A stretch of DNA of 64,000 nt. It comes from Kaistia hirudinis (lineage in GTDB: Bacteria > Pseudomonadota > Alphaproteobacteria > Rhizobiales > Kaistiaceae). Position numbers and translations under genes: made by a program. This document shows positions 5,870-53,628 of this stretch, piece after piece; the stretch's first letter is position 1, and the number at the start of each line of letters is the position of its first letter. Below the pieces are notes generated by a model that worked only from the letters and a program-made list of their open reading frames with translations, had not been told where the DNA came from and searched no databases. Location: contig NZ_JACIDS010000003.1 in assembly GCF_014196455.1 (NCBI RefSeq), positions 682,001 to 746,000 of the forward strand, read 5' to 3'.

Positions 5870-5895
5870 GGCGGGCCACCTACCCCTCAAGACGG

Positions 5896-5932
5896 AAAAG
5901 CCCCGGCATCGGACCCGATGCCGGGGCTTTTT
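5896..5932 (+). terminator. Intrinsic terminator after gltBD
   Basis: A perfect 16-bp inverted repeat (5896-5911 with 5916-5931) has a 4-base loop, a GC-rich core (GCCCCGGCATCG) and a run of five T at its 3' end. The matching A-run on the left arm also lets it act on the opposite strand, where the UPF0303 gene ends at 5964. Confidence 0.93.
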
Positions 5933-5963
5933 GCTTAGTGTCCGCCTCGAAAAGCGGAGAGTT

Positions 5964-6473: not shown

Positions 6474-6510
6474 CGTCCCGTCTCCCGATCGCGCATGCGA
6501 CAGCCGGCCC

Positions 6511-34949: not shown

Positions 34950-35024
34950 GTGAATAGGCCCGCGATAGAAGAGGCCACCGGGTTCTGCTCGAGGAGGAGC
35001 GGCTCCCGGTCGAGGGAGGAAAGA

Positions 35025-36077
35025 ATGGATAGAGCTGCCCAGCGTTCAACCGCGCCGGAGGCATCGGGACGTGCGCTCCGGGATCGTCTGACGCGCCTGG
35101 TCGCCGTCGGCGAGGTCGGCGTGCTTCTGGCGCTCGTCGTGATCGTCGTGTTCTTCTATGTACTGGAACCGGCCTTCCTTTCGGAGCGCAACATCCGCGC
35201 GATCCTCCGTGTCGTGTCCTTCGTCGGCATCATCGCGATCGGCCAGACGATCCTTCTGGTCAGCGGCGAGTTCGATCTTTCGGTCGGCGCGGTGGCGGGG
35301 CTTTCTGCCGTGGTCAGCGCCAAGCTGATGACGGCGCTGGCGCTGCCGGTGCCTGTCGCTCTGGTGGGCGGCGTGCTCGTCGGCGGCTGCGTCGGCCTCG
35401 TCAACGGCCTCGCCGTGGTGAAGCTCAAGATTCCCGCCTTCATCCAGACGCTCGGCATGCTGTTCATCGGCCAGGGGCTGATCCAGCTCGTCACCAATGG
35501 CTATCCGGTCTATCCGCTGCCCAAGGTCGTCGGGGCCATCGGCATGGCCGATTTCGTGTTCGGCCTCGGCTGGAGCTTCGTCTTCTTCGTGATCGCCGCG
35601 GTCTCGGCCGATTTCGTGCTCCGCCGCACCGTGCTCGGGCGCAACATGTATGCGACCGGCGGCAATCCCGAGGTCGCGCGCCTCGTCGGCATCGACACCA
35701 ACCGCTACAAGATCGGCGCCTTCATGGTCACCGGCATGCTCGCGGCCGTCGCCGGCATGTTCGTCATGGCCGATCTTTCCTCCGGCACGACGTCGATCGG
35801 CTCCGGTTGGGAGCTTACCGTGATCGCCGGTGTCGTCGTCGGCGGCGTCAGCCTGTTCGGCGGCTCCGGCACCATGGCCGGCGGCCTGATCGGCATCCTT
35901 TTGCTGCAGGTGGTGACCTCGGGCCTCGTCGTCATCGGCGTCAATGCCAACTGGCAGCAGATCGCCGTCGGCCTGATCATGGTCATCGCGGTCGGTCTCG
36001 ACGTGCTCCGCCGCCGCACCTTCATCGCCGGCTCCAGTGCGCAGCCGGTGAGCGAGCCGGGTAACAGCCCGGGCTGA
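35025..36077 (+). CDS. Sugar ABC transporter permease, ribose type (system 1)
   Basis: A 350-residue inner-membrane permease of the CUT2/RbsC family, with about ten hydrophobic segments and the family motifs IGQTILLVSGEFDLSVGAVA, GLVNGLAVVKLKIPAFIQTL, RNMYATGGNPEVARLVGID and VVGGVSLFGGSGTMAG. The start at 35025 follows GAGGGAGG; the 25-residue frame extension upstream is not plausible. It is followed by its binding protein and ATPase. Confidence 0.93.
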   Translation: MDRAAQRSTAPEASGRALRDRLTRLVAVGEVGVLLALVVIVVFFYVLEPAFLSERNIRAILRVVSFVGIIAIGQTILLVSGEFDLSVGAVAGLSAVVSAKLMTALALPVPVALVGGVLVGGCVGLVNGLAVVKLKIPAFIQTLGMLFIGQGLIQLVTNGYPVYPLPKVVGAIGMADFVFGLGWSFVFFVIAAVSADFVLRRTVLGRNMYATGGNPEVARLVGIDTNRYKIGAFMVTGMLAAVAGMFVMADLSSGTTSIGSGWELTVIAGVVVGGVSLFGGSGTMAGGLIGILLLQVVTSGLVVIGVNANWQQIAVGLIMVIAVGLDVLRRRTFIAGSSAQPVSEPGNSPG

Positions 36078-36157
36078 AAGGCGGCCGTTCCGCCGGGTCG
36101 GCGGGCGGCCGAACAAGATCCGGCGGGGGGCCGGTCAATCAAGAGGGAGGACTAACC

Positions 36158-37135
36158 ATGCTCAACAGAAGAACCGCGCTCGGCAAGGCGCTGCTCGTCG
36201 CACTCACTGCGACGGCGGCCCTGATGGGCGGCACGGCGCTCGGCAACGCCGCCGGCAAGAACATCCTCTGGGTCCAGCCGATGCGCGACCATCCGGTTCA
36301 TCGCCTGATGCAGGCCGGCTTCCTCGCGAAGTGCAAGGAACTCGGCAATACCTGCGAGGTCGTCGGCAATCCGAGCGCGACCAATTACGACGTCTCGGCC
36401 TCGATCCCGCTGGCCGAAGCCGCCATGGCGCGCACCAAGTTCGACGCCATCGCCGTCTATGGCCCCGGCCCGGAGATCTATCCCTTCATCGGCAAGCTCG
36501 GCCAGGAAGGCTTCCCGGTCGTGACCTGGCACGTGCTGCCGCCCGAGGGCAGCGTTCCCGGCCTCAAGGCCGCCACCGGCGAGGACATTCCGAGCGCCGG
36601 CAATGCGGCCGCGATCTCGATGGGCGAGAAGCTCGGCGGCAAGGGCACGATCGCCCTGACGCAGGGCTCGTCCAACGACACCGAGAACGTCATGTCGGAT
36701 TCGTTCCGCAAGACGATGGCGGAGAAGTTCCCGGACATCAAAATCCTTGAGACGCAGATGGAGGGCTTCGAGCCGTCGGCTGCCGAGGGCAAGGCCGTCG
36801 CGATCCTGCAGGGCAATCCCGACGTCGTGGCCGCCTTCTCGACGACCGGCAACGGCATCCAGACCTGGTCGGGCGCCGCCCGCAAGGCCGGCCGCGAAGG
36901 TCTCGTGATCATCGGCATGGACTATATCCGCCAGAACCTCGACATCGTGAAGGCCGGCCAGGCCTTCGGCGTGGTCGCCCAGCCGCTCTATGAAGAGAGC
37001 GCCAAGACGGCCGAGCTCGCCAATGATCTCGCCGAGGGCAAGACGGTGCCGTATCTCAATCCGCTGCCGGCCTCGGTGCTCACCGCCGCCGACCTCGAGC
37101 CCTATTACAAGATGCTCGACAGCGCCGGCCAGTAA
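36158..37135 (+). CDS. Sugar ABC transporter substrate-binding protein (system 1)
   Basis: A 325-residue periplasmic protein of the ribose/xylose-binding type (Peripla_BP_4). The signal sequence has a twin-arginine near the start (MLNRRTALGKALLVALTATA) and mature sequence begins near AAGKNILW. Later motifs are DAIAVYGPGPEIYPFIGKLG, GKGTIALTQGSSNDTENVMS and AFSTTGNGIQTWSGAA. AGAGGGAGG lies before the ATG. A stable hairpin follows before the ATPase gene, consistent with higher expression of the binding protein. Confidence 0.92.
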   Translation: MLNRRTALGKALLVALTATAALMGGTALGNAAGKNILWVQPMRDHPVHRLMQAGFLAKCKELGNTCEVVGNPSATNYDVSASIPLAEAAMARTKFDAIAVYGPGPEIYPFIGKLGQEGFPVVTWHVLPPEGSVPGLKAATGEDIPSAGNAAAISMGEKLGGKGTIALTQGSSNDTENVMSDSFRKTMAEKFPDIKILETQMEGFEPSAAEGKAVAILQGNPDVVAAFSTTGNGIQTWSGAARKAGREGLVIIGMDYIRQNLDIVKAGQAFGVVAQPLYEESAKTAELANDLAEGKTVPYLNPLPASVLTAADLEPYYKMLDSAGQ

Positions 37136-37160
37136 GGCAAGGCGAGCAACCGCTCCGTCT

Positions 37161-37182
37161 CTCCCGGGGAAGTTCCCGGGGG
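37161..37182 (+). other. Hairpin between binding protein and ATPase (system 1)
   Basis: CTCCCGGG (37161-37168) and CCCGGGGG (37175-37182) form an 8-pair stem (one T-G) with a 6-base loop in the 125-bp gap after the binding protein gene. It has no T-run; it may protect the upstream message or reduce read-through. Confidence 0.5.
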
Positions 37183-37260
37183 AGACATCTCCTCGACCCG
37201 CCTTTACCGTCCCGATGATGGCGAAGGCCGATAGCGCGACGCAGGCGAAAGCAGACGACC

Positions 37261-38844
37261 ATGACCGACACCAGGGCGCCGCAGTCCGTCATCGAATGCC
37301 GCGGCATCGTGAAGAGCTTTTCCGGCGTCCAGGCGCTCCGCGGTGTCGACATCGCGGTGCATGCGGGCGAGATCCACGCGCTGCTCGGACAGAACGGCGC
37401 CGGCAAATCGACGCTGGTCAAGATCCTGAACGGCGTCCATGCGGACGGCTCCTATAGCGGCGAGATCCTGATCGACGGCAAGCCCGTCCGCTTCGGCTCG
37501 ACCTCGGACGCCCGCGGGCATGGCGTCGGCTATGTGCCGCAGGAAATCGAGGTGCTGGAGAACCTGACCGTCGCGGAGAACGTCTTCGCCGGCCAGACCG
37601 GCCTCGGCGGCCTCCTCGTCAGCCAGAGGGCCTTGCAGGCGCGCACGCGCGCGCTCTTCCGCGATCTCGGCCTCACCATCGATCCGGGCGCGCTCGTCGC
37701 CAGCCTCACCTCGGCGCAGCGCCATCTCGTCATGATCGCCCGCGCCCTCTCGTTTTCGCCGCGCGTCCTGATGCTGGACGAACCCACCGCATCGCTCTCC
37801 GGTGCCGAGGTCGACAGCCTCTTCGCTGTCCTCAGGCGCCTCCGCGAGCAGGGCCGCACCATGATCTTCATCACCCATCGCCTGCCGGAGGTGCTGGCGC
37901 TGTGCGACCGCGCCACGGTGCTGCGCGACGGGCGCGTCGCCGCCGAGATCGGGCGCGAGGATTTCGACGCCGACCGCTTCATCTTCGCCATGTCGGGCCA
38001 GCGGCTGCAGCGTCTCTATCCGCATCACGACGCACCGGCGGACGCGCCGCCACTGCTCTCGGTCAGCAACCTCTCGGTCCAGGGGCGCTTCGGCGTCAAT
38101 CGCGGCGTCACGGGCGTCTCGTTTGACGTGAAGCCGGGCGAGATCCTCGGCCTCGCCGGCCTGCTCGGCTCCGGCCGCACGGAGATCCTGCACGCCATCT
38201 ATGGCCGCATTCCCTATTCCGGCGAGATCCGTCTCGGCGGGCAGCCGGTCGCGATCCGCAAGGCGAGCGACGCGCTGCGCGCCGGCATCGCGCTCCTCAC
38301 CGAAGACCGCAAGCATGACGGGCTCTTGTTCAATCTGCCAGTCGGCGCCAACATCACGATCGGCAATCTCGGGCCGCTCTCGGCGAACGGCATCGTGCGC
38401 GGCGACAAGGAGAAGAGCGCCGTGCTCGCGGCGATGCGGGCGCTGAACGTCAAGGCGCGCTCGCCGCAGGCTTCCGTCGCGCATCTCTCCGGCGGCAACC
38501 AGCAGAAGCTGCTCTTTGCCCGCGTGCTGATGAGCGCGCCGCGCGTTCTCCTGCTCGACGAGCCGACCAAGGGCGTCGACGCCGGCACGCGGCACGAGAT
38601 CTACCGCCTCATCGTCGACCTCGCCAATCAGGGCGTCGCGCTGATCGTGGTCGCCTCCGAGCTCGAGGAGGTGATCGGCCTCGCCGATCGCTGCCTCGTC
38701 GTGGCCGATGGCCGCGTCGTCGACGCGTTCTCGCGCGAAGCGGGCAGTGAGGATCGCGTGCTCCGCGCGGTCGCGGCGGCGCAGGCGGCGGCCAGCGCGG
38801 CGACGGCGGGCGTGGCGGCGCGGACGGGGAATTCCAAGGCATGA
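37261..38844 (+). CDS. Sugar ABC transporter ATP-binding protein, two NBDs (system 1)
   Basis: A 527-residue double ATPase of the RbsA/XylG type. NBD1 has Walker A GQNGAGKST, a weak signature (LTSAQRHLVMIARAL) and Walker B LMLDEPTASLS. NBD2 has the usual degenerate Walker A (GLLGSGRTE), signature LSGGNQQKLLFARVL and Walker B LLLDEPTKGVDAGT. It ends in an Ala-rich tail. It powers the permease at 35025. Its stop overlaps the SDR start at 38841. Confidence 0.93.
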   Translation: MTDTRAPQSVIECRGIVKSFSGVQALRGVDIAVHAGEIHALLGQNGAGKSTLVKILNGVHADGSYSGEILIDGKPVRFGSTSDARGHGVGYVPQEIEVLENLTVAENVFAGQTGLGGLLVSQRALQARTRALFRDLGLTIDPGALVASLTSAQRHLVMIARALSFSPRVLMLDEPTASLSGAEVDSLFAVLRRLREQGRTMIFITHRLPEVLALCDRATVLRDGRVAAEIGREDFDADRFIFAMSGQRLQRLYPHHDAPADAPPLLSVSNLSVQGRFGVNRGVTGVSFDVKPGEILGLAGLLGSGRTEILHAIYGRIPYSGEIRLGGQPVAIRKASDALRAGIALLTEDRKHDGLLFNLPVGANITIGNLGPLSANGIVRGDKEKSAVLAAMRALNVKARSPQASVAHLSGGNQQKLLFARVLMSAPRVLLLDEPTKGVDAGTRHEIYRLIVDLANQGVALIVVASELEEVIGLADRCLVVADGRVVDAFSREAGSEDRVLRAVAAAQAAASAATAGVAARTGNSKA

Positions 38845-39635
38845 GCGGCGCGTTGGCTGGCAAGTTTGCCGGCAAGAGCATCTTCATCACCGGCGCCGCG
38901 ACCGGCATCGGCTGCGCCAGCGCCGAATATCTGGCGGGCGAGGGCGCCTCCGTCTTTGGCTTCGGCATGGACGGCGCCGAGGGCCGGGCGCTCGAAAGCC
39001 AGCTGTCCGCCGCCGGTCACCGCTTCGTCTTCCGGGAAGGCGATGTCACGGAAGACGCGGCGGTGCGCGCCGCAGTCGCGGCGGCCGTCGCGGCGTTCGG
39101 CCGGCTCGATGCCGTCGTCAACTGCGCCGGCATCTATGCGACCGGGAAGCGGCTCGAGGATCTCTCCGACGCCGAATGGGACAAGACGATCGCCGTCAAT
39201 CTAACGGCCGTCTTCCGCACCTGCCGCGCTGCGCTGCCGCATATCCGCGCGAGCGGCGGCGGTTCGGTCGTCAACCTCGCTTCGGTCCATGCGCTGGCGA
39301 CGGTTCCCGGCGTTCCGGCCTATGCCGCCACCAAGGCGGCCGTGCTCGGCCTCTCGCGCCAGATGGCGCTCGACTATGCCGTCGACCGCATCCGTGTGAA
39401 CGCCGTCATCGTCGGCTCGGTGGCGACGCGCATGACGCTCGGCGGCGCGGATGGGCCCGAGGCTCGCGCCAAGGTCGAGGCGGCCGGGCTCTATTTCGAC
39501 GAATGCCGCGTGCCGCGCGTCGCCGATCCGGCGGAACTCGCCAAGGCCATCGGCTTCCTGATCTCCGACGACGCCTCCTTCGTCACCGGCTCCGGCTTCG
39601 TCGTCGACGGCGGCCTGACGGCGCTGCTGCTCTGA
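38841..39635 (+). CDS. SDR family oxidoreductase
   Basis: A 264-residue short-chain dehydrogenase with the complete motif set: cofactor FITGAATGIGCASAEYLA, NCAG (DAVVNCAGIYATG), Ser in VVNLASVHALAT, YxxxK in AYAATKAAVLG, and a C-terminal GSGFVVDGGLTALLL. Translation is coupled to the upstream ATPase by ATGA. It probably oxidises the sugar imported by system 1. Coenzyme preference was not judged. Confidence 0.9.
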   Translation: MSGALAGKFAGKSIFITGAATGIGCASAEYLAGEGASVFGFGMDGAEGRALESQLSAAGHRFVFREGDVTEDAAVRAAVAAAVAAFGRLDAVVNCAGIYATGKRLEDLSDAEWDKTIAVNLTAVFRTCRAALPHIRASGGGSVVNLASVHALATVPGVPAYAATKAAVLGLSRQMALDYAVDRIRVNAVIVGSVATRMTLGGADGPEARAKVEAAGLYFDECRVPRVADPAELAKAIGFLISDDASFVTGSGFVVDGGLTALLL

Positions 39636-39641
39636 CGGCCC

Positions 39642-40541
39642 TTACACCGCGAACGGTGTGAAACAGATCGTGCCGCCGATGCGGTCACCGGGTTCCAGAA
39701 CGATGATGCCGAGGTCGCGCTCGCCGCGCTCGGCCTTGTTGAAGGCGCAGGGCACGTTGGTCTGCGGTTCCAGGCAGAAGAAGTCCTTGGCCGGATCGGC
39801 ATAGAGCATCAGATTGCCGAAGATCGGGTCCGCGGCCATGCGGAGGCCCGCGCCGCGCCTCGGCCAGCTTATCTCGGCGATGCCGTCCCAGCCGCCGTAA
39901 TTATTGTTGCGCCAACCCGGCGGCAGCGGCGCGCCGGCGGTGAAATCGAGCTCCGGCGGCAGGCTGATCCGGTCTCCCGCGACGCCGTCCGGCGCTTCGA
40001 GCCAGAAGGCGCTGGCCGTGAAGGCGAGCGTCACGCCCTCTTCGCGCTCGAACCAGGGATGATGGCCGAAGCCGAACGGCATGGCCTCAGCGCCGGTGTT
40101 CTCGATCGTCGTCTCCAGCACGAGCCCTTCGGGCGCCAGGCGAAAGATCTGCGTCGCGCGATAATCATAGGGATCGTCGCCGCCATGGTGGTCGAGCGTG
40201 AGCTCGGCGAGGCCCCCGTCCTGCGCGGCGAGCGTCCAGGCTGATTTCCAGCCGGTTCCATGCACATTGAAGCGCTCGGGGCTGTTATTGGTCTGGACGA
40301 CATAGTCGCGTCCGGCAAAGGCGAAGCGGTTGCCGTCGATCCGGTTGGCGTAGGGCACCATTGGAAAGGACGCGACGGCGAGCACGTCGCGCCGCGCGGC
40401 GGCGCCCGGCGAGAGCGGGCGCATCAGGTCGATGCCGCGCCAGCGGAAATGGGCGATCGAGCCGCCGATCTCCGGCACGAGCCCGAGCGACAATTCGCCA
40501 GCCTTCAGCGTGACGAGGTTGGGTTCAGAAGTCACGGCCAT
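39642..40541 (-). CDS. Aldose 1-epimerase family protein
   Basis: A 299-residue galactose mutarotase-like protein (GalM superfamily). Visible are FPMVPYANRIDGNRFAFAGR (including the substrate Arg), NVHGTGWKSAW with a catalytic His region, MPFGFGHHPWFE with another His, and CLEPQTNVPCAFN with the general base Glu. It would interconvert anomers of an imported sugar, or act on a modified sugar. It overlaps the degenerate SDR gene by 17 bases, so both are probably in one minus-strand transcript. Confidence 0.9.
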   Translation of the reverse strand: MAVTSEPNLVTLKAGELSLGLVPEIGGSIAHFRWRGIDLMRPLSPGAAARRDVLAVASFPMVPYANRIDGNRFAFAGRDYVVQTNNSPERFNVHGTGWKSAWTLAAQDGGLAELTLDHHGGDDPYDYRATQIFRLAPEGLVLETTIENTGAEAMPFGFGHHPWFEREEGVTLAFTASAFWLEAPDGVAGDRISLPPELDFTAGAPLPPGWRNNNYGGWDGIAEISWPRRGAGLRMAADPIFGNLMLYADPAKDFFCLEPQTNVPCAFNKAERGERDLGIIVLEPGDRIGGTICFTPFAV

Positions 40542-41109
40542 AGCCCGCCGCCCAGCCGCCGTCGACGGCCAGCACCTGGCCGACCGTGTAACTGTTCATC
40601 GGATCGCAGAGGAACAGCACGGCGTTCACGACCTCGTCCGCCGCCCCGCCCCGGGCGAGCGGCACATGGCTCAGCATCGCCGGATCGGCAGCACCGTTTT
40701 CCGTGTCGATGAAGCCGGCGGCGACGCCATTGACCAGAACCTTCGGCGCCGCCTGCATGGCGAGCACGCGCAGGCTCGCGATCGCCGCGGCCATGGCCGC
40801 CGAGGCCGCCTCATGCCGCCGCATCGGCACGAGGCCGATCGCCGACAGGATATGCACGATCCGCCCCGCGCCGCGCGCCGCCATCGCCGCCGCCGCCTGC
40901 CGTGCCGTCTCGGTGAGGGCTGGCGAGAGATCGGCGCTGAGATCGAGTGGATGGGAGAGAACGAGCAGGTCCGGCGTCGGCCCGGTCGGGATCTTCTCCG
41001 CCGGCAGCAGGCTGGCCCCATTCCGCTTGAGCGCCGCGGCGACGCCGTCCGATACGGCATTGCGCGCGCCGGCCAGCACCGCGGTCTGGCCCGCGAGATC
41101 GATCTTCAT
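40525..41109 (-). CDS. Degenerate SDR-like protein, catalytic motifs missing
   Basis: A 194-residue protein, shorter than usual SDRs (about 250). The C-terminus (VNAVLFLCDPMNSYTVGQVL then VDGGW) is clearly SDR-like. However, the N-terminal glycine motif is replaced by AGARNAVSDG, the NNAG region is gone, and the YxxxK motif is replaced by HEAASAAM. It is unlikely to be an active dehydrogenase but keeps an open frame, so it may be a binding partner or an eroding gene. It is first in the minus-strand pair with the epimerase, divergent from the E1 fusion across a shared 18-bp motif. Confidence 0.8.
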   Translation of the reverse strand: MKIDLAGQTAVLAGARNAVSDGVAAALKRNGASLLPAEKIPTGPTPDLLVLSHPLDLSADLSPALTETARQAAAAMAARGAGRIVHILSAIGLVPMRRHEAASAAMAAAIASLRVLAMQAAPKVLVNGVAAGFIDTENGAADPAMLSHVPLARGGAADEVVNAVLFLCDPMNSYTVGQVLAVDGGWAAGYGRDF

Positions 41110-41289: not shown

Positions 41290-43731
41290 ATGAGCGCAGC
41301 CGCATCGGGCCGCAAGGTCCGCGCCGTGAAGTCCGCAGGCCTGCCGGCGGAACTGTCGCGAGCCGCCCTGCTCGATCTCTATGAGCGCATGGTCCTGCTG
41401 CGGCGCTTCGAAAGCGTGGCGCAGACGGCGTGCCGCAAGGGCGAGACGCCCGGCTTCCTGCATCTCTATATCGGCGAGGAGGCGACGGCCGTCGGCATCT
41501 GCGCGCATCTGAAGCCGACCGACTGGATCACCTCCACCCATCGCGGTCATGGCCACGCGCTCGCCAAGGGCATGAGCCCCAACAGCCTGATGGCGGAACT
41601 CTTCGGCAAGCGCGACGGCTGCTGCGGCGGCCGCGGCGGCACCATGCATCTCTATGACCGCTCGGTCGGCCTGTTCGGCACCAACGGGATCGTCGCGGCC
41701 GGCATCAGCCACGCGGTCGGCGTCGGACTCTCGGGGCGTGCACGCGGGCGGGAGGATATCGGCGTCGCCTTCTTTGGCGATGGCGCGACCAATCATGGCG
41801 GCTTCCATGAATCGCTGAACTTTGCCGGCATACAGAAGGCGCCGGCGATCCTCGTCTGCGAGAACAATCTCTATGCGACGGCGACGCCGCTCGCCTCGGC
41901 GACGCTCAACACCGAGATCGCCTCGAAGGCGGCGTCCTATGGCATTCCCGGTATTGCCGTGGACGGCAATGACGTGATCGCCGTCTGGGAGGTTATGCGC
42001 GAGGCGACGCGCCGCGCCCGTTCCGGCGAGGGCCCGACCCTCATCGAGGCGAAGACCTATCGCACGGTCGGCCATCACGAGGGCGATCCGGTCACCGGCA
42101 CCTATCGCACGCAGGCCGAGGTCGATGAATGGCTCAAGCGCGATCCGGTGAAGCTGTTCCGCGCCCGGCTGACCGACGATTTCTCCGTGGCTTCGACGGA
42201 TGAGCTCGACGCCATCGATGCGCGCATCGACGCGATCGTGCAGACCTCGCTTGAATTCGCGCGCAATTCGCCCGAGCCGGATCCAGCGACGAGCGGGCTG
42301 CACGTCTTCGCCGAGCCGCTCAATCCGCCGGAAGCGCTGGTCCAGCCCGTCCCGGGCGCGACGCAGACGCAGAGCTGGCTGGATGCGGTCCGCGACGGCA
42401 TTGCCGAGGAGATGCGCCGCAATCCGCACCTCCTCTATTTCGGCGAGGGCACGGGCGAGCGCGGCGGCACCTTCGCCCATACCAAGAACCTCTATGCCGA
42501 GTTCGGCCCGCAGCGCATGGTCGACACGCCGATCTCGGAGCAGGGCTTCACGGGCGCGGCGATCGGCGCCTCGGCCACGGGAACGCGGACCATCGCCGAC
42601 CTGATGTTCGCCGATTTCATGTTCGAGGCCGCCGGGCAGATCGTGCTGCAGGCCTCGAAGCTGCGCTACATGTCGAACGGGCAGATGAATGCGCCCGTCG
42701 TGATCCGTGTCGGCTCCGGCGCCGTGCGCTCGGCCGGCCCGCATCACAGCGGCATCTACCACACCTCCTGGGCGCATGTGCCGGGCCTCGTGGTCTGCAT
42801 GCCGGCGACGCCGGCCGATGCCAAGGGGCTGATGAAGACGGCGCTGCGCGCTTCCGACCCCGTCATCATGCTGGAGCCGAAGGCGCTGTTCGCGACCAAG
42901 GGCGAGGTGCCTGCGGCCGAGCATTTCGTGCCCTTCGGCCTGGCGCGCATCGCGCGCGAAGGTCGCGACATCACGATCGTCTCCGCCGGCCAGCTCGTGC
43001 ACCGCTCCTTGGAAGCAGCCGAAAAGCTCGCTGCCGAAGGCATCGAGGCCGAGGTGATCGACCTCCGCACCATCATGCCGCTCGACGTCGGCACCGTCGC
43101 CGCGAGCGTCACCAAGACGCATCGCCTGCTCGTGGTTGACGAGGGCTGGGGCGCGTTCGGCGTCGGCGCGGAACTCGCGCAGGCCATGAACGAGCTCGCC
43201 TTCGACGAACTCGACGCGCCGGTGGGCCGCCTGCATTCCGAGGCGCAGCCGCATCCGCTCGCCCCCGCGCTGGAGCGGGCGATGCTGGTCGATACCGACA
43301 AGATCCTGGCCGCCGTCCGGAGCGTTCTCTCCGGGACGGCGCCGACCCCCAAGCACTGGCGGCATCTCGGCGGCCGCACGGCGGCGCCGGTCGCATCATC
43401 TCCTCCCGTCCCGGTTCCGTCTGCCCCGTCGCAAGCCGCCAGTGCTTCCCCGCCGCCACCTGCCGCCGCGGCGCCCGGCGGCCCGGGCGAGCCGATCACC
43501 ATGCCGTTCGGTGACTTGACCGTTTCGGAGGGCACCATCGTCGGCTGGCTGAAGGCCGAGGGCGACAAGGTCAAGGCCGGCGAGATCGTCGCCGAGATCG
43601 AGACCGACAAAGCCGTGGTCGAGATCGAGGCGCCGATCGACGGCGTGCTCGGCCCGATCGAGCAGGCGAAGGGCGCCGTCGTCCCGATGGGCGGGCGCAT
43701 CGGCAGCGTCGTTCCGGGAGGGGCGGCATGA
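41290..43731 (+). CDS. 2-oxo acid dehydrogenase E1 alpha-beta fusion with C-terminal lipoyl domain
   Basis: An 813-residue protein joining three parts normally on separate chains. Residues about 20-330 are E1 alpha, with the TPP/Mg motif FFGDGATNHGGFHESLN and the matching CENNLY, plus RGHGHALAKG. Residues about 358-690 are E1 beta (FGEGTGERGGTFAHT, DLMFADFMFEAAGQIVLQAS). A Pro/Ala-rich linker leads to a lipoyl domain at about 735-813 whose lipoyl lysine is K774 in ETDKAVVEIEAP. It would decarboxylate a 2-oxo acid and acylate its own tethered lipoyl arm. The start at 41290 is chosen over 41287 and 41278 by spacing from GGAGG (41281-41285). The E2 gene overlaps its stop; no E3 gene is nearby. 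Confidence 0.9.
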   Translation: MSAAASGRKVRAVKSAGLPAELSRAALLDLYERMVLLRRFESVAQTACRKGETPGFLHLYIGEEATAVGICAHLKPTDWITSTHRGHGHALAKGMSPNSLMAELFGKRDGCCGGRGGTMHLYDRSVGLFGTNGIVAAGISHAVGVGLSGRARGREDIGVAFFGDGATNHGGFHESLNFAGIQKAPAILVCENNLYATATPLASATLNTEIASKAASYGIPGIAVDGNDVIAVWEVMREATRRARSGEGPTLIEAKTYRTVGHHEGDPVTGTYRTQAEVDEWLKRDPVKLFRARLTDDFSVASTDELDAIDARIDAIVQTSLEFARNSPEPDPATSGLHVFAEPLNPPEALVQPVPGATQTQSWLDAVRDGIAEEMRRNPHLLYFGEGTGERGGTFAHTKNLYAEFGPQRMVDTPISEQGFTGAAIGASATGTRTIADLMFADFMFEAAGQIVLQASKLRYMSNGQMNAPVVIRVGSGAVRSAGPHHSGIYHTSWAHVPGLVVCMPATPADAKGLMKTALRASDPVIMLEPKALFATKGEVPAAEHFVPFGLARIAREGRDITIVSAGQLVHRSLEAAEKLAAEGIEAEVIDLRTIMPLDVGTVAASVTKTHRLLVVDEGWGAFGVGAELAQAMNELAFDELDAPVGRLHSEAQPHPLAPALERAMLVDTDKILAAVRSVLSGTAPTPKHWRHLGGRTAAPVASSPPVPVPSAPSQAASASPPPPAAAAPGGPGEPITMPFGDLTVSEGTIVGWLKAEGDKVKAGEIVAEIETDKAVVEIEAPIDGVLGPIEQAKGAVVPMGGRIGSVVPGGAA

Positions 43732-44429
43732 GCGCCGCCGCCAGCCGTCGCGCCGCCTCTCCCTATGCGCGGCGCCTCGCCCGCGAGCGCGGCATTGCGC
43801 TCGCCGAACTGGCGGGCACCGGCCCGCGCGGGCGCATCGTCGCGGCCGATATCCCGCTGCAACTGGTTGCCGCGCCCGAGCCCGCGGCCGCCGTGCCAGC
43901 GCCGGCGCCTGTCGCCACCGCGCCTTCTGCCCCGGCTCCGGTCGCCGTCGCGGCACGGGCGTTCGGCGCCTTCGCGACAAACCTCGCCCTCGGACCGCTG
44001 CGCGAGCTTATTGCCGCGGCTGGTGTCGATGTGCCGCTGCACGCCTTCCTCGCCCGCGCCGCGGCGCAGGCGACGGGGCGCTATGCCGAGGCGATCCGCC
44101 TCGTCGCCGCGGATGGCCGTTCGGTAGCGGTCGCGGGACCGGCGCGCCTCGCCCCGTCCGAGATCGCGTGCCGCTTCGAGGCAGGGGAGGGCGCATCGGC
44201 CGAACGGCCGCTCGTGCTCACCCATCTCGCCGTCTCGGGCATCCGCCCGGTCGCCGGCAGCCTCGCGCCGGACTGCGACCTGCGCATCCTCGTCGTGGCC
44301 GCGCCCGGTACTGAGACGGGCGAGGCCTTGCTGGTGCATGACAGCGACGCGGTGAGCGAAGCCGAGGCCGCCACCATGCTCGCGGCCTTCCGCGACGCGC
44401 TCGAAAACCCGCTGCGGCTGCTGGTGTAG
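43728..44429 (+). CDS. Reduced E2-like protein: PSBD plus eroded acyltransferase domain
   Basis: A 233-residue protein lacking the N-terminal lipoyl domain. It begins with a peripheral-subunit-binding domain (ASPYARRLARERGIALAELA then GTGPRGRIVAADI), a Pro/Ala linker, and a short E2-like catalytic region. The terminal segment, where E2 proteins carry the DHRxxDG active-site motif, reads VHDSDAVSEAEAATM, so the catalytic His-Asp arrangement is lost. It probably acts as a scaffold or a partner binding E1 or E3 rather than as an acyltransferase. The ATG overlaps the E1 fusion stop. Confidence 0.85.
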   Translation: MSAAASRRAASPYARRLARERGIALAELAGTGPRGRIVAADIPLQLVAAPEPAAAVPAPAPVATAPSAPAPVAVAARAFGAFATNLALGPLRELIAAAGVDVPLHAFLARAAAQATGRYAEAIRLVAADGRSVAVAGPARLAPSEIACRFEAGEGASAERPLVLTHLAVSGIRPVAGSLAPDCDLRILVVAAPGTETGEALLVHDSDAVSEAEAATMLAAFRDALENPLRLLV

Positions 44430-44784: not shown

Positions 44785-45564
44785 CTACATCATGTAGCCG
44801 GCGGTCCAGCCGCCATCGACGGTGAGGATCTGGCCGTTGACGTAGCTGGAGGCCGGGGAGGCGAGGAAGAGGACCGCCTCGGCAATCTCCTCCGGCGTGC
44901 CCGGACGTCCGAGCGGGACATGGCGCATGAAGGCGGCGGCCTTTTCGTGGAACTTGCCGCTCTCGCCATAGAACAGCTTCTTCGTTCCCTCGGTCATCAC
45001 GGAGCCCGGCGCGACGCAATTGGTCAACACGCCCTTGGCGCCGAGTTCGAGCGCCATCGAGCGCGTCAAATGGATGATGCCGGCCTTGGCGGCGACGAAG
45101 GGGCTTTGCAGCCGCATCGCCGCGAGGCCGACCACCGAACCGATATTGACGATCCGTCCGCCCCGCCCGGCGGCCAGCATCGGCTTCAAGGCCGAGCGGC
45201 TCATCAGGAAGAGCCCGTCGAGATCGATGCCGACGATGCGATGCCATTCCTCGGTCGGGAAGGCATCGATGTCGACGCGGTGGGCGAGCGTATTGACGCC
45301 GGCATTGTTGACGAGGATATCGAGGCGGCCGAAGCGCTGGATCGTGCGTTCGACGGCGCGGTCGATCGCCGCCTCGTCGCGGATGTCGACGATCGCGGGC
45401 ATCGCGTCCGGCAGCGCGGCGGCGACGGCCTCGGCGCCTTCGGCATTGATGTCGGCGACGACGATCGAGGCGCCGTTCGCCGCCAGGCGGTCGACGATCG
45501 CGCGCCCGATGCCGCCCGCCGCCCCCGTCACGAAGGCGACGCGGCCCGAGAGATCGCACTGCAT
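44785..45564 (-). CDS. SDR-family protein with catalytic Tyr replaced by Phe
   Basis: A 259-residue short-chain dehydrogenase with an intact cofactor site (FVTGAAGGIGRAIVDRLAAN), NNAG (ILVNNAGVNTLAH) and catalytic Ser region (IVNIGSVVGLAAM). The position of the YxxxK tyrosine is Phe: SPFVAAKAG, with codon TTC. The C-terminus (VDGGWTAGYMM) resembles that of the degenerate SDR at 40525. The start at 45564 has GGAGGAGG upstream. Reduced or altered activity is inferred. It is divergent from the GntR gene across an 18-bp motif. Confidence 0.88.
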   Translation of the reverse strand: MQCDLSGRVAFVTGAAGGIGRAIVDRLAANGASIVVADINAEGAEAVAAALPDAMPAIVDIRDEAAIDRAVERTIQRFGRLDILVNNAGVNTLAHRVDIDAFPTEEWHRIVGIDLDGLFLMSRSALKPMLAAGRGGRIVNIGSVVGLAAMRLQSPFVAAKAGIIHLTRSMALELGAKGVLTNCVAPGSVMTEGTKKLFYGESGKFHEKAAAFMRHVPLGRPGTPEEIAEAVLFLASPASSYVNGQILTVDGGWTAGYMM

Positions 45565-45608
45565 GGAAGCCTCCTCCCGCCCCACATCCCGCAGGGTCGA
45601 TTTCTTAT

Positions 45609-45626
45609 CTATTATGATACTATAAT
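45609..45626 (-). promoter_or_regulatory. Island 18-bp motif, site D (variant)
   Basis: On the minus strand this reads ATTATAGTATCATAATAG, matching 12 of 18 bases of the island motif and keeping its twofold symmetry around CAT/ATG. It lies between the SDR and GntR genes, a natural position for autoregulation. Confidence 0.5.
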
Positions 45627-45733
45627 CAAGGCGAGCGCGGATCGACAATGCCGCACCGTCATAACCGGCGATTGGTCGCGGCGGAGAATTCCGCTAGCCT
45701 TCGCCTTTATCGGACGATTCTGGGACTTCAGCT

Positions 45734-46549
45734 TTGCGAGCGAGTGGTCGAAGGCGGGCAGAGGCGGTGGCGGAAGAGGCGGGCGAGGCGCCCGATCTTT
45801 CGGACGTCTTCGCGATGCGCGTGCTGTCGCGGGACGACGGGCCGCTCTATCGGCAGCTGCTCGCCATCCTGCGGGCGCCGATCACGGATGGCCGTCTCTC
45901 GCCGGGCACCTCGCTGCCGCGCGAGGCCGATCTGGCGGAGCGCTTCGGCGTCAGCTTGATCACGGTGCGCCAGGCGTTGCGCGATCTCGAGAGCGAGGGG
46001 CTGATCAAGAAGCGCGCGGCCAAGCCCGCCGTCGTCGCGGAGCCCGAGGCACGCGGCAGCAGCAGCTTCGCCTTCAAGAGCTTCACCGAGATTGCCGCCT
46101 CCACCCGCGAGCGCCGCCTCGTCATCCACTCCTATCGCAAGGAGCGCTCGACCACGGCCGCCAAGGCGTTCGGCCTGCCGGCGGACGAGCCGATGCCGTG
46201 CCTTCGCGCGACGCTTTACCTCAAGGACGTGCCGACGGGGCAGACGACGTTCTATTTCCCGCCCGCCATCGGCGCGCAGCTGAAGCGCTCGGATTTCGAC
46301 GACGTCGTCATCTTCCGCTCCGTCCAGCGCCATCTCGGCATCAAGCTGTCCGGCGCCGGGATCACCGTGCGGGCCGATGTCGCCGACCAGAAACTCGCCG
46401 AGGCGCTGGACTATGAGGTCGGCGGCCCGATCCTCGTCATCGAGATGCTCTATCGCTCGGCGGATGGCGAGCCGGTCGAACTGACGATCAACCGCAATCG
46501 CGCCGATCTCTTTTCGCTGAGCTACGAAGCGCCGAACGACCTCGTCTGA
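45734..46549 (+). CDS. GntR-family regulator (HutC/UTRA type)
   Basis: An N-terminal winged helix (PLYRQLLAILRAPITDGRLS, LPREADLAERFGVSLITVRQ with the recognition helix) is joined to a UTRA-like effector domain (LYLKDVPTGQTTFYFPPAIG, LAEALDYEVGGPILVIEMLY). Length is 271 residues from the TTG at 45734; the start is uncertain, and the GTG at 45767 or ATG at 45815 could be the true one. It is the best candidate to bind the 18-bp motif found beside it and at four other island promoters. Its end overlaps the convergent LtrA gene by 28 bases. Confidence 0.88.
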   Translation: MRASGRRRAEAVAEEAGEAPDLSDVFAMRVLSRDDGPLYRQLLAILRAPITDGRLSPGTSLPREADLAERFGVSLITVRQALRDLESEGLIKKRAAKPAVVAEPEARGSSSFAFKSFTEIAASTRERRLVIHSYRKERSTTAAKAFGLPADEPMPCLRATLYLKDVPTGQTTFYFPPAIGAQLKRSDFDDVVIFRSVQRHLGIKLSGAGITVRADVADQKLAEALDYEVGGPILVIEMLYRSADGEPVELTINRNRADLFSLSYEAPNDLV

Positions 46550-48047: not shown

Positions 48048-48106
48048 AACCGTCGCCGCAGATGAGCGCCGGATCTTGGGAAGTAACGGTTTCAAGGGAG
48101 GACAAT

Positions 48107-49165
48107 GTGAAGCGGACAGTCATTCTATCCGCCGTGGCGGCAACCGCCATGGCGCTCGCGGTTACGCCGCAGGCGTTCGCCGAGGGCAAGCCCTACAAGA
48201 TCTATCTCTCCAACAATTTCGTCGGCAACGACTGGCGCCAGCAGATGGAGCGCGTCGCCGAGGTGTCGGTGAAGAAGGGACCGTTGGCCGGGCGCGTCGA
48301 TTTGAAGATCGAGAACGCGGAAGGCACGGTCCAGGCGCAGATCAATTCGCTCAACAACATCATCCGCTCGAAGCCCGATGCGATCCTGATCGACGCGGCC
48401 TCGGCCGAGGCGCTGAACCCGACCATCAAGAAGGCCTGCGACGCCGGCATCGTCGTCATCTCCTTCGACCAGGTCGTGAGCGAGAAATGCGCCTATGCGC
48501 TCGAATCCGACTGGACCCGCATTCCGGCCGTGATGGCGGAATGGATGGCCAAGCAGCTGAACGGAAAGGGCAAGGTCTTCGTCGACCGCGGCCTCGCCGG
48601 CGCACCGATCTCGGCCCAGCTCGAGAACGGCTATCTCGAGGTGCTGAAGAAATATCCGGGCATCGAGGTGATCGGCACCTATAACGGCGAATATGCGCTC
48701 GGCCCGGAGCAGGCCGGCGTCGCCAGCCTTCTCGCCGCCCATCCCGAAGTGGATGGCATCCTGACGCAGGGCTATGGCTCGGGTGCGATCAAGGCGCTGC
48801 AGGATGCCGGCCGCAAGGTCGTCCCGGTCACCGCCTTCTCCTACAATGTCGCGGCGACCACCTGCGCCCAGACGGAAGGGGCCGCCTGCATCCTCGGATC
48901 GAACCCGGCCTATCTCTCCTCCGAGGCGATCAAGCTCGCGGTCGACATCCTCGACGGCAAGCCCAAGCCCGCCGATCGCCATATCCTCGTGAATGGCGAC
49001 TTCCTGGCGACGAATGGCGGCGCGTGGACGTCGGAGCTCTATCCCAAGGCGGTGATCCAGAAGATCGAGATCGGCAAGAACGCCTTCCCCGATCGTCCGC
49101 CGGGCCTCACCCTGCCGATCACGCCTGACTGGGTCGAGATTACGGCTGAGGAAGCCGCCGGCTGA
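48107..49165 (+). CDS. Sugar ABC transporter substrate-binding protein (system 2)
   Basis: A 352-residue periplasmic binding protein, Peripla_BP_4 type. The signal peptide (KRTVILSAVAATAMALAV) cleaves near AFA-E, followed by KPYKIYLSNNFVGNDWRQQM, KPDAILIDAASAEALNPTIK and VDGILTQGYGSGAIKALQDA. The start is the GTG at 48107, with GGGAGGAC (48097-48104) just upstream; the ATG at 48062 is less likely. Four downstream genes form the operon. Ligand unknown. Confidence 0.92.
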   Translation: MKRTVILSAVAATAMALAVTPQAFAEGKPYKIYLSNNFVGNDWRQQMERVAEVSVKKGPLAGRVDLKIENAEGTVQAQINSLNNIIRSKPDAILIDAASAEALNPTIKKACDAGIVVISFDQVVSEKCAYALESDWTRIPAVMAEWMAKQLNGKGKVFVDRGLAGAPISAQLENGYLEVLKKYPGIEVIGTYNGEYALGPEQAGVASLLAAHPEVDGILTQGYGSGAIKALQDAGRKVVPVTAFSYNVAATTCAQTEGAACILGSNPAYLSSEAIKLAVDILDGKPKPADRHILVNGDFLATNGGAWTSELYPKAVIQKIEIGKNAFPDRPPGLTLPITPDWVEITAEEAAG

Positions 49166-49177
49166 GCGGCGACCCTT

Positions 49178-49225
49178 CCGGCAGCCTGTCTGCCGGCACT
49201 CTGCGGGGCGGCCGTGCCGCCCCGC
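49178..49225 (+). other. Two hairpins between binding protein and ATPase (system 2)
   Basis: CCGGCAG (49178-49184) pairs with CTGCCGG (49190-49196), and GCGGGGCGG (49203-49211) pairs with CCGCCCCGC (49217-49225), the latter followed by TTCTT. Position after the binding protein matches that in system 1, consistent with expression tuning. Confidence 0.5.
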
Positions 49226-49257
49226 TTCTTCCAGCGTTTCCCTGACGAGCGGACTCC

Positions 49258-50763
49258 ATGCCCGATTTTCTCGAGGCGCTCTCCGTTGCCAAGCGCTATG
49301 GCGGCATCGTCGCCCTGTCCGATGCGACGCTGAAGGCCCGCTCCGGCGAGGTGCATGCGCTCCTCGGCGAGAATGGCGCCGGAAAGTCCACCTTCATCCA
49401 GATCCTCGCCGGCGCCGTGCGCGCCGACAGCGGCAGCATCACGCTCGGCGGCGAACGCTTCGCGGTCCGCAATCCCGAGGAAGCGCAACGCCTCGGCGTC
49501 GCGGCCGTTTTCCAGGAACTCTCGCTCATTCCCGACCTGACCGTCGCGGAGAACATCTTCTTCCGCCGTGAGCCGCTTTCGCCCCTGCGCACCGCGCGGG
49601 CCGGCGCCATGCGCGAGGCGACGGCCGAACTCTTCGCCCGCTACCGCTTTCCCGCGATCCGGCCGGACCAGGAACTCCGCCGACTCACGCTGGCGGAGCG
49701 GCAGGTGGTCGAGATCGCCAAGGCGCTCGCCCGCGATCCGAGGGTGCTGATCCTCGACGAGGCGACATCGGCCCTCGCCCCGCGTGAGACGGAATGGCTG
49801 CTCGGCCTTTCCCGCGATCTCGCCGCCGAGGGCAAGCTCGTCATCTACATCTCGCATCGCCTCGGCGAGGTCCGCCGGATCGCCGACCGCGTCACCGTCT
49901 TCCGCAATGGCGCGACGGTTGCGGCCTATGACACCGCGTCGGTCGATGACGACACGATCATCGCCGATATGCTCGGCCGCCAGATGGAGCGGCTCTACCC
50001 CGAGCGGCGCAACACCACGACGGGTCGGATTGCGCTCAGCGTGAAGGGCCTCAGCGTCGAGAACCGTCTCGCCGACCTCGATCTGGACCTGCGCGAAGGC
50101 GAAGTGCTCGGCGTCGCCGGATTGCAGGGCCACGGCCAGCGCGAACTGTTCCAGGCGCTGTTTGGCGCCGCCCGCGCCTCCGGGGCGATCGAGGTCTGGG
50201 GCAAGCCGCGCACCATCCGCAGCCCGCGCGATGCGCTCTCCGGCCGCGACGGCCTGGCGCTCGTGCCGGAGGACCGGCGCAATCACGGCCTGCTTCTGGC
50301 CAAGAGCGTGCGCGAGAACCTGACCCTCTCCGTCGTCAAGCGCTTCACCAGGTTCGGCCTGACCGATCCGAAGCGCGAGGCGAAGCTGGTCGACGACATG
50401 ATCGCGCAACTGCGCATCAAGGCCGGCTCGCCGGAGCAGGCGGCCGGCACGCTGTCGGGCGGTAACCAGCAGAAGGTGATCTTCGGCAAGATGCTGCTCA
50501 CCGATGCGCGCATCCTGCTGCTCTATGATCCGACCCGCGGCATCGATGTCGGCACCAAGGGCGAGATCTTCACGCTGATGCGCGACCTCGCCGCGCGGGG
50601 CTATGCGATCCTGTTCTATTCGAGCGACCTCGCCGAACTCGTCCATGTCGCCGATCGCGTCGCCGTGCTGCGCTATGGCCGTCTCGCCGCGATCCTCGAA
50701 GGCGCGGAGAATTCCGAGCACCAGATCCTCCGCGCCGCCATGATCGATACGAGGGCTGCATGA
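49258..50763 (+). CDS. Sugar ABC transporter ATP-binding protein, two NBDs (system 2)
   Basis: A 501-residue RbsA-type ATPase. NBD1 has Walker A GENGAGKST, signature LTLAERQVVEIAKAL and Walker B LILDEATSALA. NBD2 has the degenerate Walker A region (GLQGHGQRE) and a good signature (LSGGNQQKVIFGKML). Its Walker B is LLYDPTRGIDVG, so the usual DE pair is YD and the catalytic Glu is missing. One competent site is expected, as in related importers. The ATG overlap with the next gene at 50760 suggests coupling. Confidence 0.92.
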   Translation: MPDFLEALSVAKRYGGIVALSDATLKARSGEVHALLGENGAGKSTFIQILAGAVRADSGSITLGGERFAVRNPEEAQRLGVAAVFQELSLIPDLTVAENIFFRREPLSPLRTARAGAMREATAELFARYRFPAIRPDQELRRLTLAERQVVEIAKALARDPRVLILDEATSALAPRETEWLLGLSRDLAAEGKLVIYISHRLGEVRRIADRVTVFRNGATVAAYDTASVDDDTIIADMLGRQMERLYPERRNTTTGRIALSVKGLSVENRLADLDLDLREGEVLGVAGLQGHGQRELFQALFGAARASGAIEVWGKPRTIRSPRDALSGRDGLALVPEDRRNHGLLLAKSVRENLTLSVVKRFTRFGLTDPKREAKLVDDMIAQLRIKAGSPEQAAGTLSGGNQQKVIFGKMLLTDARILLLYDPTRGIDVGTKGEIFTLMRDLAARGYAILFYSSDLAELVHVADRVAVLRYGRLAAILEGAENSEHQILRAAMIDTRAA

Positions 50764-51773
50764 CGATGATAGCGAGCGAACCCGGCGAGCATGCTGCCCG
50801 GCCGCCCAGCGCGCCCGCACGCTGGCGGGGATGGCTGCTGGACCGCGCCTCGCTGCTCATTCCCTGCCTGATGCTGCTGGCGCTGCTCGCCGTCTATGGC
50901 TCGATGCGTGAGGGGGTCTTCACGCTCGACGAGCTCAATCTCGATACGGCGGCGGCGATGACGCTGATGCTGGCCGCAACCGGGCAGACCATCGTGCTGC
51001 TGCGCGGCGGCATCGACCTGTCGATCGGCGGCATGATCAGCCTCGGCACGGTGATCGCCGCCACGCAATTCGGTGATGGCGGCGCGACGACGCTGCTCTG
51101 GAGCGTCCTGATCGTCCTGCTCGGCGCCGTGGTCGGCATGCTGAACGGAGCGCTGATCACGGTCCTGCGCCTCCAGCCCTTCCTGGTCACGCTCGCCACC
51201 TGGTCGATCCTCGCCGGCACCGCGCTCATCATCCTGCCGATCGACGGTGGCAGCCTTCCCTCGGGCTGGATGGCCTTCGGCTCCGGTTCGTGGCTCGGCC
51301 TTGCCAGCCCGGTCTGGCTGCTGATCCTGCTGCTCGCCTTCTGGTTCTGGTTCAAGCGCACGCGCACGGGCATCGCGATCAAGGCGACGGGGTCGAACGA
51401 GCGCTCCGCCTTCCTCTCCGGCGTCTCGCCGCTCGCCATCAACCTGTGGACCTACGGCCTGTCCGGCGTCTTCGCCGCGCTGGCGGCGCTCTATCTCACC
51501 ACTCAGACCGGTGCCGGCTCGCCGACCATCGGCAAGGACTACATCCTGCCCTCGGTTGCCGCGGCCGTCATCGGCGGCATCAGCCTGTTCGGCGGGCGCG
51601 GCGGCTTGGTCGGCACGATCATCGGCGCCTACATCCTGACGATCATCGGCAATCTCGTCTTCGTGCTGTCGATCTCCAGCTATTGGCAGCCGATCGCCTC
51701 CGGCGTCATCCTGCTCATCGCGGTCCTTGCGAGCTCGCTCGCCGAGAAGTCATCGCGGCGGAACCTCTCATGA
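50760..51773 (+). CDS. Sugar ABC transporter permease (system 2, first)
   Basis: A 337-residue CUT2 permease with multiple membrane segments and family motifs LAATGQTIVLLRGGIDLSIG, VVGMLNGALITVLRLQPFLV, TRTGIAIKATGSNERSAFLS and VIGGISLFGGRGGLVG. It overlaps both neighbours (ATGA at each end) and pairs with the permease at 51770. Confidence 0.93.
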   Translation: MTMIASEPGEHAARPPSAPARWRGWLLDRASLLIPCLMLLALLAVYGSMREGVFTLDELNLDTAAAMTLMLAATGQTIVLLRGGIDLSIGGMISLGTVIAATQFGDGGATTLLWSVLIVLLGAVVGMLNGALITVLRLQPFLVTLATWSILAGTALIILPIDGGSLPSGWMAFGSGSWLGLASPVWLLILLLAFWFWFKRTRTGIAIKATGSNERSAFLSGVSPLAINLWTYGLSGVFAALAALYLTTQTGAGSPTIGKDYILPSVAAAVIGGISLFGGRGGLVGTIIGAYILTIIGNLVFVLSISSYWQPIASGVILLIAVLASSLAEKSSRRNLS

Positions 51774-52746: not shown

Positions 52747-53628
52747 ATGACCGATATCGAATGCGTCGTCGACGCCAAGGCTCTGCTCGGCGAGAGCACC
52801 TATTGGGACCCCGAGGACCAGGTGCTGTGGTGGATCGACATCTATGGCAAGACGGTCCACTGCTTCGATCCCGATACCCGCATCGACCAGACGATCACGC
52901 TGCCGGAATATCCGGGCTGCCTTGCCGTGCGCGAGATCGGCGGGCTGGTCATCTCCGACGTGAACGGCTTCCATTTCCTCGACACCGCCACTGGCGCGCT
53001 GCAGGCGATCGTCGACCCGGAGGCCGACCTCGCCGATACGCGCTTCAATGATGGCAAGACCGATCGGCAGGGCCGCTTCTGGTCCGGCTCGATGTGGGAG
53101 GCGCCGCCCAAGGCGCCGGAAAAGATCGGTTCGCTCTATCGTCTCGACACGGACCTGACCTGCCACAAGATCGTCGAGGGCGTCGGCTGCTCGAACGGGC
53201 TCGCCTGGAGCCCCGACAGCCGCACGATGTATTACACCGACAGCCATACGCCGATCGTCTGGGCCTTCGACTTCGATCCGGTCTCCGGCGAGGCGGAGAA
53301 CCGCCGCACCTTCGTCGACCTCTCCTTCATGAACGGCATCGTTGACGGCGCCACCGTGGACGAGGAGGGCTGCTACTGGCTGACTGTGCCATTCAAGGGC
53401 AAGGTCATGCGCTATGACCCGTCCGGCAAGCTCATGCGCACGATCGACCTGCCGACCGATTTGCCGACCTGCTGCGAATTCGGCGGCCCGAACCTCGACA
53501 TCCTCTATGTGACGACGGCGACGCTGCGCCGCTCGCCGGAGGAGCTCAGGGACCAGCCGCTCGCCGGCGGGCTGTTCGCCCTCCATGTCGGCGTGAAGGG
53601 CCTGCCGCTGGTGCCGTTCCGCGGCTGA
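52747..53628 (+). CDS. SMP-30/gluconolactonase-like lactonase
   Basis: A 293-residue six-bladed beta-propeller protein. The metal-site residues fall in LLGESTYWDP (Glu), RFNDGKTDRQGRFWSGSM (Asn, Asp), GCSNGLAWSPDSRTMYYTD (Asn) and IVDGATVDEEGCYW (Asp). It would hydrolyse a sugar lactone to the free acid, a substrate for the enolase-superfamily dehydratase. ATG at 52747 follows GAAGGACGAGG. It is last in the system 2 operon, and its stop abuts the convergent DUF2125 stop with no gap. Confidence 0.92.
   Translation: MTDIECVVDAKALLGESTYWDPEDQVLWWIDIYGKTVHCFDPDTRIDQTITLPEYPGCLAVREIGGLVISDVNGFHFLDTATGALQAIVDPEADLADTRFNDGKTDRQGRFWSGSMWEAPPKAPEKIGSLYRLDTDLTCHKIVEGVGCSNGLAWSPDSRTMYYTDSHTPIVWAFDFDPVSGEAENRRTFVDLSFMNGIVDGATVDEEGCYWLTVPFKGKVMRYDPSGKLMRTIDLPTDLPTCCEFGGPNLDILYVTTATLRRSPEELRDQPLAGGLFALHVGVKGLPLVPFRG

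Follow-up and report, generated by a model that had tools for sequence, protein, structure and literature searches.

An E1 fusion followed by a degenerate E2

In a 64,000-nucleotide stretch of the Kaistia hirudinis genome (contig NZ_JACIDS010000003.1, positions 682,001 to 746,000; hereafter the window), two adjacent genes show how nature has rearranged one of the most familiar enzyme assemblies in biochemistry, the 2-oxo acid dehydrogenase complex. The first (41290..43731, + strand), delimited by its open reading frame (ORF), Pfam domains and homologue identity, encodes an 813-residue protein, counted from an ATG, in which the alpha and beta parts of the decarboxylating component (E1) are fused to each other and to a lipoyl domain. 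The second (43728..44429, +), whose ORF shares four bases with that of the fusion, encodes a 233-residue relative of the acyltransferase component (E2) which, by Pfam and alignment, has neither the catalytic histidine nor a lipoyl domain. The fusion and its degenerate partner form a real and conserved pair, for which a role of the partner like that of the E3-binding protein (E3BP), E3 being dihydrolipoamide dehydrogenase, is in our judgement the best reading and a reasonably probable one.

The E1-alpha part of the fusion, recognised by Pfam and alignment, is an E1_dh domain (residues 32-332; 41383..42285, +) with, as read in the alignment, a GDG...ENN motif at residues 163-193 that we take to be the thiamine pyrophosphate motif. 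The E1-beta part comprises Transket_pyr (361-534) and Transketolase_C (551-672) matches (42370..43305, +), so that all the Pfam domains of a 2-oxo acid dehydrogenase E1, alpha and beta, are present, and a Biotin_lipoyl domain follows at residues 743-803 (43516..43698, +). The lysine predicted from sequence and alignment to be lipoylated is K774 (codon 43609..43611, +), a numbering that is correct because ETDKA spans residues 771-775; here Pfam domains and sequence agree with a first-pass annotation of this DNA, which had placed a lipoyl domain with K774 on an 813-residue E1-alpha-beta fusion. Identity to seven homologues is 75-83%, ETDK is invariant in the eight fusion homologues aligned, and the longer lipoyl-lysine motif EIETDK is kept in 43 of 43 loci, that is, the window and the 42 fusion-type loci described below.

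The E2-like partner and its lost catalytic site

A peripheral subunit-binding domain (PSBD; Pfam E3_binding, residues 10-42; 43755..43853, +) opens the partner protein and is its sole Pfam match, and a shrunken E2-core-like domain (residues 79-231; 43962..44420, +) follows, the two parts that the first-pass annotation had seen in this gene. The E2 catalytic domain, PF00198, found no match in the window's protein; when hmmscan was applied to 22 E2-like proteins (the window's and those of 21 loci with a complete gene), six matched, at best with E 0.012, and in Prosthecomicrobium and Oricola genomes E2-like fragments exceed the PF00198 cut-off only if summed. The PSBD was found in all 22, and a Pfam scan of the E2-like proteins found no lipoyl domain. 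To judge from sequence, therefore, of the hallmarks of an E2 acyltransferase the protein appears to keep the PSBD and to lack the PF00198 domain, the catalytic His and the lipoyl domain.

In profile alignments HDSDAVSE (44337..44360, +) occupies the site of the E2 motif DHRxxDG, as had been proposed, and the catalytic His is indeed gone; the His of HDSDAVSE, H204, does not align with it. Rather, D205 corresponds to the Asp of DHR, S206 to the catalytic His and S210 to the Asp of DG. Across the 22 proteins the position of the catalytic His is filled by Ala (13), Pro (5), Glu (3) or Ser (1) and never by His. The Asp that precedes it is kept in 22/22, and the second Asp position holds Ser (10), Pro (5), Thr (3), Asp (2), His (1) or Gly (1).

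The C-terminal domain is nonetheless a reduced, degenerate E2 core, and the candidate view that it is unrelated to E2 is rejected by three lines of comparison. A profile of this domain without the PSBD, searched against the PDB, finds human PDHX (6h60_A) first (E 5.8e-8) and catalytic E2 cores next (from E 1.8e-4); hhalign aligns the core with intact E2s over 158 columns (96.1%, E 2.8e-9); and the 50 best Foldseek rows for an AlphaFold2 model of the protein (mean pLDDT 88.6, core mostly >90) are all E2 proteins or cores, among them E. coli E2o (1scz) at 2.6e-11, with moderate TM-scores of 0.47-0.56 by query length.

Distribution, coupling and selection

A scan of genome contigs with the fusion's lipoyl domain gave 291 confirmed stretches, of which the best 80 were taken; 42 of these are of the fusion type (L043-L084) and, with the window, make up the 43 clusters considered here. 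E1-alpha, E1-beta and lipoyl parts share a single open frame, uncut by a contig end, in 36 of the 42; L084 has all three domains, with E1-alpha truncated by the contig end, the fusion is cut further in L065, L073, L075 and L079, and that of L060 is frame-broken. Directly downstream of the fusion, or one gene later, a complete E2-like gene was found in half of the loci (21/42). In L066 the contig end truncates the E2-like gene, in L068 the gene is broken across several frames, and the sequence of L053 stops about 400 bases past the fusion, while L071 holds a 305-residue protein made of a PSBD and an E2 core with an intact DHRVVDG and no lipoyl domain. No E2-like gene was found near the fusion in 17 loci (L055, L062, L067, L069, L072-L084) within the stretches examined, which extend at most 6 kb to each side of the fusion, often less, and for several loci come from metagenome bins; supplementary searches for the PSBD and for PF00198, each in 18 genomes, cover 15 of these 17 loci for the PSBD and 11 in both.

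Several stages of the rearrangement are thereby represented in living genomes, the fusion being accompanied in some by an intact lipoyl-less E2, in others by a degenerate E2, and in others again by no dedicated E2 that could be found. The earlier idea that the two losses go strictly together does not survive L071 and the fusion loci in whose examined stretch no E2-like gene was found. A frameshift or pseudogene in the Kaistia assembly, which the first-pass annotation had named as a possible source of the altered C-terminus, is in turn excluded by the 21 other loci with a complete gene for the same kind of protein, and by purifying selection (below).

Three loci call for a separate remark. Records titled Burkholderiales 68-10 (L060) and Exiguobacterium profundum SSD5 (L068) hold alphaproteobacterial-type fusion clusters, the former close to Devosia, and are probably metagenome bins with wrong names or wrong contents. 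In L067 a partial match to an intact-type E2 core (profile 161-230) lies where the fusion ends, on the opposite strand (5059-6570, -), a possible misassembly.

The two genes are coupled within the window's family, where 14 of 28 genomes have both, two the fusion only, one (a 720-contig genome) the E2-like gene only, and 11 neither (Fisher p 5e-5). Presence was counted at E 2.5e-41 or better for the fusion (absent ones, 4.5e-18 or worse) and at 1.5e-35 or better for the E2-like gene (absent ones, 7.1e-6 or worse), and genome G333, whose fusion match has one in-frame TGA, was counted as having a fusion. In a wider sample of the order, 297 genomes, eight have, among the matches listed, a full-length match to the E2-like protein at E <=2e-19, and in each of these an E1-lipoyl gene adjoins it; plasmids yielded no homologue of the E2-like protein at E 1e-5. 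When 37 fusions and three outgroup rows were placed in a tree, a single 27-row clade (support 97/99) took in every one of the 20 rows that have a complete E2-like gene, and left outside L071, L074 and the Rhodospirillales/Acetobacteraceae rows; the root is unsure because the outgroup branches are very long. In ten pairs of E2-like genes omega was 0.11-0.31 for the core, in every pair, and 0.00-0.68 for the PSBD, where the values are noisy because the domain is short. Both domains are under purifying selection.

Neighbouring genes and likely substrate

Around the pair, the window holds genes of sugar uptake and metabolism. Upstream lie a sugar-type ATP-binding cassette (ABC) importer (permease, binding protein and ATPase by domain scan and synteny; 34950..38844, +), a short-chain dehydrogenase/reductase (SDR) with an intact YxxxK motif by Pfam and alignment (SDRa; 38841..39635, +), a member of the aldose 1-epimerase family by Pfam (39642..40541, -) and a short SDR-like protein in which Pfam and alignment reveal no YxxxK (SDRb; 40525..41109, -). 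Downstream are SDRc, an SDR with its catalytic Tyr changed to Phe, likewise from Pfam and alignment (44785..45648, -), a GntR/UTRA regulator assigned by Pfam (45734..46549, +), a second sugar-type ABC importer (binding protein, ATPase and permease by domain scan and synteny; 48062..51773, +) and an SMP-30/gluconolactonase-like protein found by domain scan (52762..53628, +) and 65-79% identical in L036-L041. This cluster, with its two sugar ABC importers, SDRs, aldose epimerase and SMP-30 lactonase, is kept in six relatives, and what the Bauldia locus L042 has in common with the window is limited to two SDRs besides the fusion and the E2-like gene.

A 2-hydroxyacid dehydrogenase, from either PF02826 or Ldh_2, families unrelated to each other, was found by tblastn with four representatives in 28 of the 43 clusters, the window being included in the total; in 24 of the 28 it follows the fusion, or the fusion and E2-like gene, and in L066, L068, L080 and L082 it lies upstream. 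Its frequency makes a 2-oxo acid formed from a 2-hydroxy acid the likely substrate. Among the representatives scanned, some clusters also encode HpcH aldolases, an FAA hydrolase, a member of the enolase family resembling sugar-acid dehydratases, and importers of the sugar or tripartite ATP-independent periplasmic (TRAP) type.

The SDRs deserve notice in their own right. Phe replaces the YxxxK Tyr in all 20 rows at least 61% identical to SDRc, itself included, and more distant homologues in L071, L074 and one L072 copy keep the Tyr; such a conserved Tyr-to-Phe SDR is unusual. SDRb, often close to SDRc, has the catalytic Lys in 0/15 rows and the Tyr in one (L070), and looks like a second pseudoenzyme of the cluster.

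A proposed mechanism and its alternatives

We favour, as somewhat the likelier account, a catabolic 2-oxo acid dehydrogenase built from an E1 with its own lipoyl arm and a non-catalytic, E3BP-like scaffold derived from an E2. After decarboxylating its 2-oxo acid substrate, the fusion E1 would load the acyl group onto its own lipoyl-lysine, K774. Housekeeping E3, docked through the PSBD of the E2-like protein, would then reoxidise this lipoyl group, and the shrunken core would serve to keep the scaffold assembled or to fasten it to E1. E3 recruitment is suggested by the PSBD and by the similarity to E3BP/PDHX, and a scaffold, as already surmised in the first-pass annotation, is the role that we find most plausible for the partner. 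No E3 gene was found in the window, again as stated there: the ten matches of a lipoamide dehydrogenase model in the K. hirudinis genome, three of them over the cut-off, all lie elsewhere. The genome also has lipA. The acyl group may be taken up by a housekeeping E2 or by water; if it derives from a sugar acid, a hydroxyl of its own may capture it to give a lactone, a route that we ourselves infer. With this pair one can ask by experiment whether the oxidation of a 2-oxo acid can be freed from CoA acylation.

Several observations weigh against this account. Bacterial PSBDs are reported to be able to bind E1 or E3 (PMC10156792), so that docking of E3 is not proven by the presence of the domain. 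With the PSBD included in the profile, catalytic E2s lead the PDB search (2.6e-19) and PDHX comes twelfth (4.9e-10), and Foldseek likewise ranks catalytic E2 cores before PDHX (rank 16, 1.4e-9); it is thus the core profile by itself that brings the protein near PDHX. The E2-like proteins of other loci are 33-55% identical to the window's, as against the 75-83% of the fusion, so that this protein diverges much faster; together with G261 and G323, two genomes of the family in which the fusion is kept and the E2-like gene was not found, this implies that it is not indispensable. Lastly, no 2-hydroxyacid dehydrogenase lies in the stretch searched around the pair in the window or in L043-L049, the loci of Kaistia type.

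Among the alternatives, one to which we give a modest chance is that the fusion passes its acyl group in trans to a housekeeping E2, such as the E2 core of pyruvate dehydrogenase (PDH), that the E2-like protein joins this core as the mammalian E3BP does, and that the product is an ordinary acyl-CoA. The K. hirudinis genome has four intact, ordinary E2 genes, and eight genomes of the Rhodospirillales/Acetobacteraceae type with the fusion (L072, L076-L078, L080, L082-L084) have one or two PF00198 genes in seven cases and three in one; moreover, L071 combines the fusion with an intact lipoyl-less E2, which indicates that a lipoyl domain on E1 can coexist with a catalytic E2. Yet none of the representative cluster proteins scanned was recognised as an enzyme that uses acyl-CoA, it would be strange for a conserved and dedicated partner without catalysis to be needed if the PDH core were enough, and the genome of L074, which may be incomplete, shows no PF00198 gene.

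A more radical form of the favoured scheme, in our view possible though not likely, is a 2-oxo acid dehydrogenase that does without CoA. E1 would acylate its own lipoyl arm, E3, sitting on a bacterial analogue of E3BP, would reoxidise that arm, and the acyl group would be released without E2, by hydrolysis or, if it is a polyhydroxy acyl derived from a sugar acid, by closure to a lactone, which the cluster's SMP-30 lactonase would open. Were it true, the reaction would be a net NAD-linked shortening of sugar acids by one carbon, without CoA.

That the E2-like protein is itself a slow or altered acyltransferase, working through D205 and other residues, seems improbable. The Asp beside the site of the catalytic His is invariant, and in E. 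coli E2o His375 variants retain 0.5-60% of activity (complex activity left: His375Ala 2.1%, His375Asn 0.5%, His375Trp 59%; Asp379Ala 9.5%), with some reverse-direction acyl transfer seen even without the catalytic domain (PMC5986005). These values, and the four host E2s that could act in trans, make the first-pass verdict of 'impossible' acyl transfer too strong. Against such an activity, the second Asp persists in 2/22 proteins, and the core has about 155 residues versus about 230 in a normal E2, its alignment starting about 30 residues in; this shortening is a stronger argument than the residue changes. Least probable, to our mind, is a decaying relic without function, which would fit the fast divergence, the failure to find the gene beside the fusion in L055 and L062 and the broken frame in L068, but is opposed by 22 members with an open frame and conserved C-terminus, core omega <0.35 in 10/10 pairs and the co-occurrence of the two genes in family genomes.

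Comparison with known systems

Searches of an open-access library turned up no description of an E1-alpha-beta-lipoyl fusion paired with an inactive E2, though parts of the arrangement have parallels. QncL/QncN and SclQ2-4, which transfer a glycolicacyl unit to acyl carrier protein, likewise carry a lipoyl domain on a chain with E1-beta-like domains, but QncL holds an acyltransferase domain, works with a separate E1-alpha and is biosynthetic, whereas the Kaistia pair has lost the acyltransferase (PMC6335953). In actinobacterial OdhA, a two-in-one E1-E2, the E1, E2 and lipoyl parts are also redistributed between chains; there E2 catalysis resides on E1 and lipoyl domains come from E2p, whereas in Kaistia the lipoyl domain is on E1 and E2 catalysis is missing (PMC10415282). 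The PDH of Saccharibacter (L086) has an N-terminal lipoyl domain on its E1-beta chain, but its E2 keeps lipoyl domain, PSBD and catalytic core.

K. hirudinis itself has a second E1-alpha-beta fusion of 746 residues (L130 5196-8693; G000:C3 ~889-893 kb), similar in joining both parts in one chain but without a lipoyl match; it pairs with a complete E2 that has the DHR motif and a C-terminus, PLRLLA, as in the E2-like family, so that the oddity is specific to the 813-residue fusion and its partner. Two plasmids show further arrangements. Thermus thermophilus pAA2-2b (L124 5992-8179) has genes for E1-alpha, E1-beta, a free 82-residue lipoyl protein and a TRAP transporter, with no E2 or E3 within the 14 kb examined, and a Phaeobacter inhibens plasmid (L123 5971-12973) has in a row E1-alpha, E1-beta, a 428-residue lipoyl-containing protein, an aldehyde dehydrogenase, a short, 292-residue E2 and lpdA (lengths from annotated coordinates).

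The closest parallel is E3BP, also called protein X or PDHX, of animal and fungal PDH: it too is an E2 homologue with a PSBD and an inactive core without the His, and it is the top PDB match of the core profile. Mammalian E3BP has a lipoyl domain. The Kaistia protein, by contrast, is bacterial and without one, and its partner E1 carries the lipoyl arm. In the paper cited above for the PSBD, an E3BP is defined by E2-like topology, an E3-specific PSBD, and an inactive core-binding domain and/or M3-like motif, the fungal core-binding domain being also a reduced E2 fold (PMC10156792). E2-like topology and an inactive core are found in the Kaistia protein by sequence and model, and the PSBD is there, with E3 as its putative partner. 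Given this partial correspondence and the lack of a lipoyl domain, we do not call it an E3BP; it looks like one and may work like one. E3BP was there concluded to be a eukaryotic gene (PMC10156792), which makes an independent origin of the Kaistia protein likely, and the K. hirudinis pair would then offer a bacterial analogue, probably arisen independently, of the eukaryotic E3-binding protein.

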